Source: Acidobacteriota bacterium (GTDB taxonomy: Bacteria; Acidobacteriota; Terriglobia; UBA7540). From it: 64,000 nucleotides of DNA. A program made the translations under genes and the position numbers. Under the pieces are notes generated by a model that saw nothing but the letters and a program-made list of their open reading frames with translations, was not told the DNA's origin and did no database searches. The stretch lies in the NCBI GenBank assembly GCA_021838785.1, contig JAKCCV010000011.1:1-64000 (forward strand). The letters run 5' to 3'. Position 1 is the stretch's first letter; each line of letters opens with the position of its first letter. Shown one piece after another: positions 24,256-31,892 of this stretch.

Positions 24256-24795
24256 ATGAACTCCAGGCGAAAGAGGCTGTGGGTGGGACTCATCTTTGCC
24301 GGGATGATGCTTCCGGCATGGGCACTGGCCACGCCCCTCAAGGTGGGCGACCGGGCGCCCGACTTTACGCTGCCCGACCAGAATGGCAGACCGGTACACC
24401 TGGCCAATTACCTTGGCAAGAAGAATGTCGTTTTGGCCTTCTATGTTTTAGCTTTCACGGCTGGCTGAACGCAAGAACTCAAGGCGTATCAGGCTGATAT
24501 CGCCAAATTTGAAAATTCAGGAACGCAGGTTTTTGGAATCAGCGTGGATAGCTCGCCGGCCAACCGTGTCTTCGCCAAGCAGCTTGGGTTGACCTTTCCC
24601 TTGCTGAGTGATTTTCAGCGCAAGGTTTCCAGAGAGTACGGAGTGCTCAATCCGAACGGTTACGCGAATCGCACCACGTTCGTGATTAACAAAAAGGGAA
24701 TCATCACGCACATTGACGTGGGCAGTGAGGCGCTGAGTCCGAGCGGGGCGGTAGATGCGTGCAGCTTGATGGCCCATCAACCGGCCAAAAACTGA
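24256..24795 (+). CDS. Exported peroxiredoxin (AhpC/TSA family) with in-frame TGA: probable selenoprotein
   Basis: A perfect AAGGAGG site precedes ATG 24256. The frame is a peroxiredoxin interrupted only by TGA at 24466-24468 (residue 71): before it [16 protein letters not shown] and [13 protein letters not shown], after it [39 protein letters not shown] and [15 protein letters not shown]. The TGA stands exactly where the family has the peroxidatic Cys, so it most likely encodes selenocysteine. A strong bacterial SECIS-type hairpin follows at 24483-24504. Residues 1-25 are a signal peptide, so the enzyme acts outside the cytoplasm on peroxides. A possible resolving Cys is Cys169. A normal gene caller splits it into two frames. 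A nonsense-mutated pseudogene is the alternative but less likely. Confidence 0.88.
24483..24504 (+). promoter_or_regulatory. Bacterial SECIS-like hairpin
   Basis: Left arm GGCGTATCA (24483-24491), loop GGC, right arm TGATATCGCC (24495-24504). Nine base pairs form with a single bulged U (24500). The loop begins 24 bases after the TGA and starts with GG, matching the known bacterial SECIS rules (loop 16-37 bases from UGA, G in the first two loop positions). Confidence 0.8.
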
Positions 24796-28331: not shown

Positions 28332-28638
28332 TATAGCCTCAAAGCCTCGACCGATCCAATCGCGCGCAACGGAACGGTGAACCCTTATGTCAGGCGGTGC
28401 CCCGCGCCCGTCCGTCATCCATCCTTGCCATAGGCCAATCTATTCCGGCATAGTCAAACCCACAGACCTCTTGCCATTCCTTTCGCTGCGACTTAGCTTG
28501 TCGGCCTATTCACTGCCCCGTTATAATCACAGCCGCGCCGCGCGAGATTTGAGAGATCAGAACGGCGCGGCAAGGCTGGTGGATGGCGCTTAGGGCCAGT
28601 CGCGCGACGCGAGCTTGCTCCGATCGGAGCTTCTGACC

Positions 28639-28947
28639 ATGGGAAAGTCGGCCACGCCAGGCGGCAAATCGCCGATGAAAGTAGCGAGGAAGTTTATCGT
28701 TTCCGGGCGAGTCCAAGGAGTGGGTTTTCGTTATTTCGCCCAGCGGGTGGCCGGTCAGCTTGGCCTCGTCGGTTATGTCAAAAATAACTGGGATGGCACC
28801 GTGGAAGCTTACGCCATCGGCGAGCCCCCCGCTCTCGATGAGTTTGAACGCCGGCTTGCCCAAGGCCCGCCCAGCGCGCGCGTGACTAACCTTTCAGTTA
28901 CCGATGAGCCGGTCATTAAGCGTTATGCCCGGTTTCAGATTGATTGA
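28639..28947 (+). CDS. acyP: Acylphosphatase
   Basis: Hydrolyses carboxyl-phosphate bonds such as acetyl phosphate. The 102-residue protein carries the active-site loop GRVQGVGFRYF with the catalytic Arg, and YVKNNWDGTVEAYA with the catalytic Asn. GGAG lies 9 bases before the ATG at 28639; an internal ATG at 28675 is possible. It is followed by apt after 14 bases. Confidence 0.92.
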   Translation: MGKSATPGGKSPMKVARKFIVSGRVQGVGFRYFAQRVAGQLGLVGYVKNNWDGTVEAYAIGEPPALDEFERRLAQGPPSARVTNLSVTDEPVIKRYARFQID

Positions 28948-28961
28948 GCGAAGGAGGATGA

Positions 28962-29477
28962 ATGGAAGACCTGAAGCGATGGATTCGTGAAGTGCCCGAT
29001 TTTCCCAAAAAGGGAATTCTATTTTACGATATCACCACGCTGCTCAAAGAACCTGCGGGGTTGCACTGGGCGGTGGACCTTTTAGCCAACCATTACGTGG
29101 GCCAATTGATTCACCGCGTGGTGGGCATTGAAGCCCGCGGATTCATCTTTGCGCCGATGGTCGCCTATCGCCTTAATGCCGGCTTTGTTCCGGTTCGCAA
29201 GCCCAACAAGCTGCCGGCGGAAAAGGCGCGGGCTGAGTACACGCTCGAATATGGGAGGGACACGCTTGAAATGCATAAGGACGCCATCGAGCCGGGTCAA
29301 AACGTTCTCGTCATTGACGACCTTCTGGCCACCGGGGGCACCGCGGCGGCTGTCGCCAGCATGGTGGAGTCACTCGGCGGCAAAGTCGCCGGCTTGGGTT
29401 TCCTCATCGAACTGGTGTTTCTGAACGGGCGCCAAAAGCTCGCGCCGTACGATCTCCACTCGGTTCTGCAATATTAG
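28962..29477 (+). CDS. apt: Adenine phosphoribosyltransferase
   Basis: Salvages adenine to AMP using PRPP. The 171-residue protein has the start typical of Apt ([20 protein letters not shown]), [18 protein letters not shown] and the PRPP loop [15 protein letters not shown] ribosome site (GAAGGAGG) precedes the ATG. Confidence 0.95.
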
Positions 29478-29532: not shown

Positions 29533-30186
29533 CTAGCTGGGTGAAGGCTGAACCGCGTCTAAAATCGAGTCCAGGAACATTTCCTCGGGCAAAGCCCCTT
29601 CGATAAATCTCTCACCGTTGACCACGGTTCGCGGCACCGCATAGACCTGGTATTCGGTCGCAAGCTCGGGAAACTCCGTCGCCTCGATGCAATCGGCGGT
29701 CACTTGCTCGCTCTCGAAGGCAAATTGATGAGCCAGGCGCACGGCCTTGGGGCAATGCGGTCAGGTGGGGGTGACCAGCACTTCGAGATGGATCGGGACG
29801 CTCAGGGCGCGCAGTTTTTCCTTGCTGGCCTCGCTAAGCTCCGACGTTCCACGTGAAACATCTAAAATGGCGTCGAGAAGCGCGGAAAACTCATAGCCTG
29901 CGGGAATGCCATAAAACCGAATGCCATAATCTTTTCCATTGCGGACGATGGTGGCCGGGACCTTATCCGCCGCGTAGTCGGCGACTTTTTCCTTGTCGAG
30001 CAGGAAGTCATAGACCTCGAGCGTCAGCTTGTCGGAAAGCGCGGTTAAGTCCTGGAGAAGTTCCCGCGTTTCGCGCCCGTACTCGACGTTGAGTTCCTGC
30101 GTAAAGTGTATCAGGCGTACCGGGGTCGGCATGTTTTCGAGGCGCTTGCAAATCTCCGCCGCGTCTTGTTCACGGATCAAGCTCAT
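29533..30186 (-). CDS. Glutaredoxin-like protein disulfide oxidoreductase with UxxC: probable selenoprotein
   Basis: Two-domain thioredoxin-fold protein of 217 residues, read through a TGA at 29763-29761 (residue 142). The first half (RLENMPTPVRLIHFTQEL...VPATIVRNG, GIRFYGIPAGYEFSALLD) matches the N-terminal domain of the PDO family. Before the TGA is LEVLVTPT, after it PHCPKAVRLAHQFA, so the active site reads T-U-P-H-C-P, with the stop codon at the first Cys of the normal CxxC. After it the second domain continues intact (TADCIEATEFPELA, YAVPRTVVNG, GALPEEMFL). Sec142 and Cys145 would form a selenenylsulfide. A weaker SECIS-type hairpin follows. The N-terminal domain has no CxxC. Gene callers split the gene at the TGA. 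Confidence 0.88.
29733..29750 (-). promoter_or_regulatory. Candidate SECIS-like hairpin
   Basis: On the minus strand, CCAAGGC pairs with GCCTGG (six pairs, one bulged A) around the loop CGTGC. The loop starts 18 bases after the TGA and has G at its second position, within bacterial SECIS limits. Weaker than the hairpin in the peroxiredoxin gene. Confidence 0.5.
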
Positions 30187-30415
30187 CGTTTCACCTCACC
30201 GAGCGGCTACCTGCTCTGTCCGCCGCCCGCCTCTCTCCCGCATTTGAGCGTTTTCGACAACACCTCTTTGGATGCTGACGGTCCCCTCAAGGTTCCGAAA
30301 AGAACGATTTTCCGTCGCGCTCACGCAACGAGGGAAACAACTTGGTGAACCCTTTCCGGCCGATTTTGCGTATGGGTTATTGGAGCCGAAACGCGCGGCG
30401 ATTTGAGCGCCCAAC

Positions 30416-30934
30416 GTGAACGACGGACATGGACCCAACTCGACCCACCTCTTTGAAAGCACGGTTCGCCAGCATCAGGCGATGGTCTTCAGCCTCGCCT
30501 ATCATTTTTTACAAGACGCCGCGGCAGCCGAGGACGTGGCCCAGGAGGTTTTCGTTCAACTTTATCGAAATTTTCGTTCGATTCAATCGCCGGGGCACCT
30601 CCGCTTCTGGTTGCGGAAAGTCACCGTCCATCGCTCTCTCGACGAACTTCGTCGGCGGCCGCCCCAACCCATCAGCTTGGAGGAAGTTGCGGAAGCGAGC
30701 ACGGACCCCGCGCCGGGCGATCCGTGGCTCTCGGCAAGGCTGCGACGGCTTGTGGCCGCGCTTCCGCCCAAGCCGCGCATGGTGGTCATTCTTCGCTTTC
30801 AGGAGGATCTTGAGCTGCGTGAAATCGCCGACACCCTCGAAATGCCGCTCAATACGGTGAAGAGTTGCCTGCGCCGCGCGCTCGCCGTGCTCCAGGCCAA
30901 GCTGGCCCGTTCGGTGGGAGACGTTAAGGTATGA
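30416..30934 (+). CDS. ECF RNA polymerase sigma factor
   Basis: A 172-residue sigma-70 family protein with region 2 (FSLAYHFLQDAAAAEDVAQEVFVQLYRNF) and region 4 (LPPKPRMVVILRFQEDLELREIADTLEMPLNTVKSCLRRAL) and no region 3, as in ECF factors. Starts at GTG 30416. It overlaps the next gene by four bases, which codes a small membrane protein likely to be its anti-sigma factor. Confidence 0.9.
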   Translation: MNDGHGPNSTHLFESTVRQHQAMVFSLAYHFLQDAAAAEDVAQEVFVQLYRNFRSIQSPGHLRFWLRKVTVHRSLDELRRRPPQPISLEEVAEASTDPAPGDPWLSARLRRLVAALPPKPRMVVILRFQEDLELREIADTLEMPLNTVKSCLRRALAVLQAKLARSVGDVKV

Positions 30935-31302
30935 GAGCCTTCGAAGATGAACTTCGCTCGGCTTTGCGTCGGCGCGAGCCGCCCGCCGGATTTGGGAACC
31001 GTATCCTCTCGCGCGTGGAAGCGGAGGAGCGGAAGGCTGTCTTAAGGCCGAGGCTTTTCAGGAATCCGGCCGTGCGCTGGCTGGCGGCAGCCGCGATGGC
31101 CTGCGTGTTGCTGATTGGCGTCGCTCTTGAGCGTCGCGCGATGGAACGGCGGCTGCAAGCCCATCGAGCCGCCCAGGAAGCGATTCTGGCTTTGCGCATC
31201 ACTCGTTATGAATTGAACCACGCCCTTGATCGCGCCATGCGCCGGGGCGGTCGTGATCCTCGACAAGAGGGACAAATCTTCTCTCCAAAGGAGCAGCCAT
31301 GA
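30931..31302 (+). CDS. Putative membrane anti-sigma factor
   Basis: A 123-residue protein with a cytoplasmic N-terminus (FEDELRSALRRREPPAGFGNRIL), one membrane segment (about residues 50-65) and a charged, helical outer part. No zinc-binding His-x3-Cys-x2-Cys motif is present. It overlaps both the sigma gene and the next gene by ATGA, so all three are translationally coupled. The assignment rests on position and topology. Confidence 0.65.
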   Translation: MRAFEDELRSALRRREPPAGFGNRILSRVEAEERKAVLRPRLFRNPAVRWLAAAAMACVLLIGVALERRAMERRLQAHRAAQEAILALRITRYELNHALDRAMRRGGRDPRQEGQIFSPKEQP

Positions 31303-31892
31303 ACACCGTCAATGCGAACCGATTCGTCACGCCCGTCATCATGGCCATCGCGCTCAGCATGGGCGCGGTGGTTGCGGCCGCGCCCTCGGCCTTGGGGCAA
31401 TCCGCCAAGCTCGACCTGAGCGCGCTCAACAAACTTGCCCGCAAAGCCTCCAATGTGACCAATGTCAGCCTGGGACCCGATGCCGTCGCGCTCGCGGCCG
31501 GCCATGTGTCGGGCAAGCAGCAGAAACTGCTCCAGCGGCTGAAGGGCATTTATGTGCGGGATTACGAATTCTCCAAGCCGGGCGAATACAGCCGGCGCGA
31601 CGTGGAAGGCATTCTCAGGCAACTTCACCAGGCCGGCTGGAAAGCCCTCGTCAACGTTGAAGAAAAGAAGACGGGAGAAGTCACCGACATCTACATTATG
31701 CGCGAGGGAGGCGAGACAGTTGGCATGGCCATCCTCGACGTGGAACCGAAAGAGCTTACGGTGGTCAACCTTGTGGGCCCGATGAATTTGGCCGAGCTGG
31801 GCGGCCTGGGAGGGAACTTTCATATTCCGCCCCTCGCGCTCCAACATCGCGGCGCTTCGTCCGTGAAAAAGCCTGCTGCCAAACCAGAATGA
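31299..31892 (+). CDS. DUF4252 secreted protein
   Basis: A 197-residue protein with a signal peptide (about residues 1-34) and a DUF4252-type body: LNKLARKAS, KGIYVRDYEF, ILRQLHQAGWKALVNVEEKKTGEVTDIYI, MAILDVEPKELTVVNLVGP. The family is secreted, of unknown role and often beside ECF sigma operons in Acidobacteriota and Bacteroidota. Coupled to the anti-sigma gene by a four-base overlap, so it may be the output or a sensor of this sigma system. Confidence 0.8.
   Translation: MNTVNANRFVTPVIMAIALSMGAVVAAAPSALGQSAKLDLSALNKLARKASNVTNVSLGPDAVALAAGHVSGKQQKLLQRLKGIYVRDYEFSKPGEYSRRDVEGILRQLHQAGWKALVNVEEKKTGEVTDIYIMREGGETVGMAILDVEPKELTVVNLVGPMNLAELGGLGGNFHIPPLALQHRGASSVKKPAAKPE

Follow-up and report, generated by a model that had tools for sequence, protein, structure and literature searches.

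A probable selenocysteine-containing protein disulfide oxidoreductase with a single active site in an Acidobacteriota lineage

Reviews published in 2022 and 2026 include the UxxC proteins of family TIGR02187 among the selenoprotein families, and a 2006 count has them as 'homolog of AhpF, amino-terminal domain'; they also go by the name Grx-like domain protein, with examples from Carboxydothermus hydrogenoformans and Symbiobacterium thermophilum (PMC1794560, PMC13188914, PMC9312934). Three selenoprotein families were credited to Acidobacteria in 2006, and three known selenoproteins are on record for one Acidobacteriota test genome (PMC12013277). The fold is shared with two better known groups of proteins. 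Archaeal protein disulfide oxidoreductases (PDOs), such as those of P. furiosus (1A8L) and P. horikoshii (1J08), consist of two fused thioredoxin folds and carry two cysteine CxxC sites (CQYC and CPYC). The double thioredoxin fold is also found in the N-terminal domain of AhpF (1ZYN, 1HYU, 5H29), which has a single active CxxC, located in the second fold, and passes electrons from a flavin reductase to a peroxiredoxin.

Here, we describe a PDO gene (pdo) of an Acidobacteriota bacterium, found in a 64,000-nucleotide stretch of DNA (the window) and interrupted by one in-frame TGA. Its product resembles the published UxxC members of TIGR02187 in its family model, in a UxxC motif with selenocysteine (Sec) first, in having one Sec per protein and in bacterial decoding. 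The published members come from phyla other than the Acidobacteriota, to which this one belongs. In its lineage, the N-terminal CxxC is absent. Relative to archaeal PDO, with which it shares full-length homology and 42% identity by structural alignment, the first site is lost and the second reads UPHC. AhpF is fused to a reductase domain; the pdo product, in contrast, is free-standing, has a predicted Sec and scores as a PDO. The gene is a well-supported addition to the known UxxC selenoprotein family, and the single-site form is the only part that we did not find described: the open-licence literature yielded no description of this variant, which may still be reported elsewhere. With pdo, a redox enzyme of the Acidobacteriota joins the proteins whose genes are broken in two at a Sec codon by standard ORF calling.

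Reading frame, family and fold

Mechanical ORF calling, which allows no readthrough, divides pdo into an ORF of 141 amino acids (29761-30186) and a second of 69 amino acids with a GTG start (29533-29742). When TGA is translated as Sec (U), a single unbroken frame of 217 amino acids results, with U142 lying within VTPTUPHCPKA. When the entire window was searched, without guidance, for ORFs that are bridged by a TGA and show coding-like codon usage on either side of it, this site came out first of eight. The features of the locus are collected in Table 1.

Table 1. Coordinates of the pdo gene, its signals and the neighbouring peroxiredoxin gene in the window
Feature	Position	Strand	Details
pdo, gene for Sec-containing protein disulfide oxidoreductase (TIGR02187)	29533..30186	-	217 aa; ATG start 30186, TAG stop 29533-29535
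In-frame TGA, predicted selenocysteine 142 in active-site UxxC of TPTUPHCP	29761..29763	-	Translation; Cys/TGA in all homologues covering the site
Likely ribosome-binding site GAGGTG, 5' of pdo ATG	30192..30197	-	Read from sequence
Probable SECIS core, codons +5 to +9 past TGA, AAGGCCGTGCGCCTG in this genome	29734..29748	-	Synonymous-codon conservation
Alternative pairing for candidate SECIS	29738-29759	-	Competing hairpin
Degenerate N-terminal active site, residues 34-37, VEYG (CQYC in archaeal PDO)	30076..30087	-	Alignment to 1J08/1A8L; 91-homologue tree
Second selenoprotein gene, TxxU peroxiredoxin (AFTAGUTQEL), separate from pdo	24256..24795	+	TGA 24466-24468; probable signal peptide

The full-length product scores 263.6 bits against the NCBIfam equivalog model TIGR02187 (PDO_seleno_TRX, cut-off 185), residues 6-210 aligning to positions 2-208 of the 209 in the model, and falls far under the cut-offs of the AhpF models. 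Pfam assigns Thioredoxin_3 to residues 133-209 and DUF7088 to residues 16-84. The nearest solved structures are the PDOs of P. horikoshii (phmmer 5.9e-51) and P. furiosus (1.7e-49). An AlphaFold2 model built from 43 window and locus sequences (pLDDT 94.3, pTM 0.91) superposes on 1A8L with a Z of 33.0 and an rmsd of 1.2 over 213 residues as two fused thioredoxin folds, and the AhpF N-terminal domains come next (Z 23 to 29). The active site UPHC occupies residues 142-145, and its Cys/Sec, Pro and Cys columns are invariant among 43 aligned homologues. An initial reading of the sequence alone (hereafter, the sequence-only reading) had proposed a two-domain thioredoxin-fold protein split by a TGA. 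That proposal stands, with two refinements: the motif is TPT-U-PHCP, and the active site is kept in one fold only. The same reading anticipated C-P-x-C in the Cys-containing homologues, and CPxC is indeed found at the site. Among plasmid records, the only matches were to AhpF-like proteins and distant PDOs, at less than 60% identity.

Decoding of the in-frame TGA

The organism was predicted to decode Sec, a prediction that a genome devoid of the machinery would have contradicted. The machinery is complete: a tRNA-Sec with a UCA anticodon (74.9 bits) and selA, selB and selD (569.6, 352.4 and 374.4 bits) are all present, each over its cut-off, and selD is itself interrupted by one in-frame TGA (VKAAGUAAKL). 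Lower-scoring tRNA-Sec matches in the genome were not counted; the runner-up is a tRNA-Ser. Among the relatives, the presence of tRNA-Sec goes together with that of the TGA. That is, it was detected in 19 of the 20 genomes that have a TGA copy of pdo (the exception, G020, is 80% complete), and the four genomes in which tRNA-Sec was undetected (G015, G028, G033 and G036) gave no PDO match and no TGA among the peroxiredoxin matches listed.

Copies of pdo were sought in 41 genomes, namely this one and 40 relatives. The TGA is found in 20 of them (this genome and 19 others), and one relative (G024) has TGC at the site. Farther homologues mostly have Cys there, with TGA in some. One scan of named genomes left 80 loci; those that extend over the site have either Cys or TGA there, and none has TAA or TAG. 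Homologues ending at this TGA would have pointed to a genuine stop; instead, in all 19 TGA-bearing rows checked, the frame stays open for 72-85 codons past the TGA before the next stop. Moreover, comparison with the nearest relative (L021) over the part 3' of the TGA gives a pN of 0.056 and a pS of 0.567 per site, and this low level of nonsynonymous change means that the frame there is still under purifying selection at the protein level.

Because the genome has the Sec machinery, TGA and Cys are exchanged in a conserved manner, selection persists past the TGA and codons +5 to +9 are constrained (see below), we hold with high confidence that pdo is a real selenoprotein and not a pseudogene. 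The two fragments returned by standard ORF calling would also be produced if a nonsense mutation or a sequencing error had split an ordinary Cys-type PDO gene. The sequence-only reading had judged a chance mutation very unlikely, and the comparison bears it out: the same TGA recurs in 20 of the 41 genomes, Cys codons are the sole alternatives to it, neither of the other stop codons ever takes its place, the sequence past it is under purifying selection and the genome decodes Sec. Together, these observations make the pseudogene explanation vanishingly improbable.

Two other ways of reading the TGA deserve slightly more weight, and both are still very improbable. The codon could be a true stop, leaving a shortened protein or two proteins, the second initiated at the GTG at 29742, which lies in frame 18 nt past the TGA. 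This start, however, would lose both U142 and C145, although C145 is invariant, and on the structural model it would sever the second thioredoxin fold from its first strand (132-138); in addition, TAA and TAG are absent from the site in all homologues that cover it. Alternatively, a variant code or general readthrough could put some other amino acid, and no selenium, at the TGA, since the codon by itself does not reveal which residue is inserted. This is countered by the use of TGA as an ordinary stop at the end of 8 of 27 long ORFs in the window (the training set), by its exchange with Cys codons only, by the full set of Sec genes and by the match between TGA copies and tRNA-Sec among the relatives.

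A candidate RNA signal past the TGA

The bacterial SECIS element is a stem-loop immediately 3' of the UGA (PMC9312934). Among the 20 TGA-bearing clade sequences, synonymous-codon conservation at codons +5 to +9 is the highest of 139 five-codon windows, 5.5 sd over the mean, and most of these sequences read CAG GCC GTG CGC CTG there. The block spans 13-27 nt past the TGA, which is about where a bacterial SECIS is expected. The Cys copy of G024 retains this conserved block of codons, as would be expected if Sec was lost there recently.

Over a 21-nt stretch in this region, the predicted folds are more stable in the TGA homologues than in those with Cys (mean -7.4 versus -5.2 kcal/mol, p 8e-5). 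The excess is smaller, and only modest, when shuffles that preserve the protein serve as the reference (mean z -0.83 for TGA and -0.27 for Cys copies, p 0.0017), and it is not significant for the sequences outside the clade alone (p 0.10). Two hairpin models can be drawn. Model A (AGGC-CGUGC-GCCU in the window) accounts for the conserved codons, whereas model B, with a longer stem starting 1 nt past the TGA, is the lowest-energy fold. The two fit the family equally, being paired in 93-94% of cells. The short hairpin that best matches the constraint is not the lowest-energy fold: with all 45 nt free to fold, its pairing probability is about 0.002. A ribosome positioned at the UGA would presumably cover most of the 5' arm of model B, leaving model A free. 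Since the in-family hairpin counts contain no compensatory change or covariation for either model, we claim no specific SECIS structure. A search of the window with Rfam returned one tRNA only and thus no library SECIS match.

Loss of the N-terminal site, proposed mechanism and candidate partners

The history of the two active sites was followed in an alignment and tree of 91 homologues, in which one sequence (L093) is uncovered at the N-terminal CxxC and was not counted as a loss. The 22 sequences from the family and order of this genome form one clade (support 100/98). The N-terminal CxxC is absent from all 22, which have N-[VL]-x-[YF]-[GA] instead, and is kept in all other homologues covered there; this distribution is most simply explained by a single loss at the base of the clade. 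Inside the clade, three Cys copies are nested among the Sec copies, a pattern that fits two or three changes from Sec to Cys. Outside the clade, in Chloroflexota and others, there are Sec copies with both sites, which uncouples the use of Sec from the loss of the N-terminal site. We lean, if only slightly, towards a scenario in which an order-level Acidobacteriota lineage turned a two-site PDO into a free-standing, single-site Sec reductase that is functionally convergent with the AhpF N-terminal domain, Sec being kept through the loss and exchanged for Cys only later. In this clade, a double-thioredoxin enzyme that has lost one of its active sites uses Sec in the remaining one, with Cys as an occasional replacement. 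Its closely related Sec and Cys versions, which have the same single site, form a natural set for asking what Sec buys a disulfide reductase.

In the mechanism that we propose, SelB carrying Sec-tRNA(Sec) would recognize an RNA hairpin just past the UGA and so place Sec at position 142. The product would be cytoplasmic, with its active site (U142-P-H-C145) in the second thioredoxin fold. The selenolate would attack the disulfide of a substrate, either a peroxiredoxin or another oxidized thiol protein, Cys145 would resolve the mixed selenenylsulfide and NADPH-thioredoxin reductase would recharge the enzyme. One thioredoxin reductase over the cut-off is encoded in the genome. With an N-terminal fold that lacks CxxC, the enzyme is predicted to have reductase activity and little or no isomerase activity. 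On balance, we consider a disulfide reductase mechanism with thioredoxin reductase as the donor reasonably probable.

The peroxiredoxin gene in the window bears on the choice of substrate. The sequence-only reading had counted two Sec genes here, and the second is genuine: most relatives examined, even ones from other families of the class, keep its TGA and the hairpin that follows (GGCGUAUCAGGCUGAUAUCGCC) almost unchanged, and the peroxiredoxins of G008 and G015 have Cys. Tandem Sec peroxiredoxin genes, both with TGA, occur in many relatives (L129-L150). Both window genes encode Sec redox proteins, and in Sulfolobus peroxiredoxins are reduced by PDO (PMC7465337); on these grounds, the peroxiredoxin 5 kb away could be the dedicated partner of a real Sec PDO, the two forming one detoxification unit. 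We find this doubtful. As judged by eye, the peroxiredoxin of this genome and of most relatives has a signal-peptide-like N-terminus and PDO has none, so the two proteins probably reside in different compartments, which makes a partnership less likely. Furthermore, L022 and L024, clade relatives with full flanks, have no related peroxiredoxin within 6 kb of pdo, and the closeness of the two genes is not shared by the relatives that have enough flank. Returning to a cytoplasmic Sec reductase, candidate substrates are two Sec peroxiredoxins with no obvious signal peptide encoded elsewhere in the genome (G000, C38:135439 and C9:226755).

No conserved operon ties pdo to a reductase or a substrate; the conserved neighbours are the convergent apt and acylphosphatase genes (28615-29477, forward strand), which lie tail to tail with pdo in most clade relatives and have no evident functional link to it. 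Further Sec candidates in the same genome include at least an AhpC/TSA-like protein (GHWUPFC), a TxxU peroxiredoxin (DFTPVU), a BCP-like protein (TPGU) and SelD (VKAAGU) (G000, L157-L160). On the 5' side of pdo and on the opposite strand (30416-31892, forward), a sigma-factor gene, a gene for a Pfam-less protein and a gene for a DUF4252 protein make up a cassette, in which the Pfam-less protein may be the partner of the sigma factor. The sigma-factor/DUF4252 cassette is also found near pdo in L026, although farther off.
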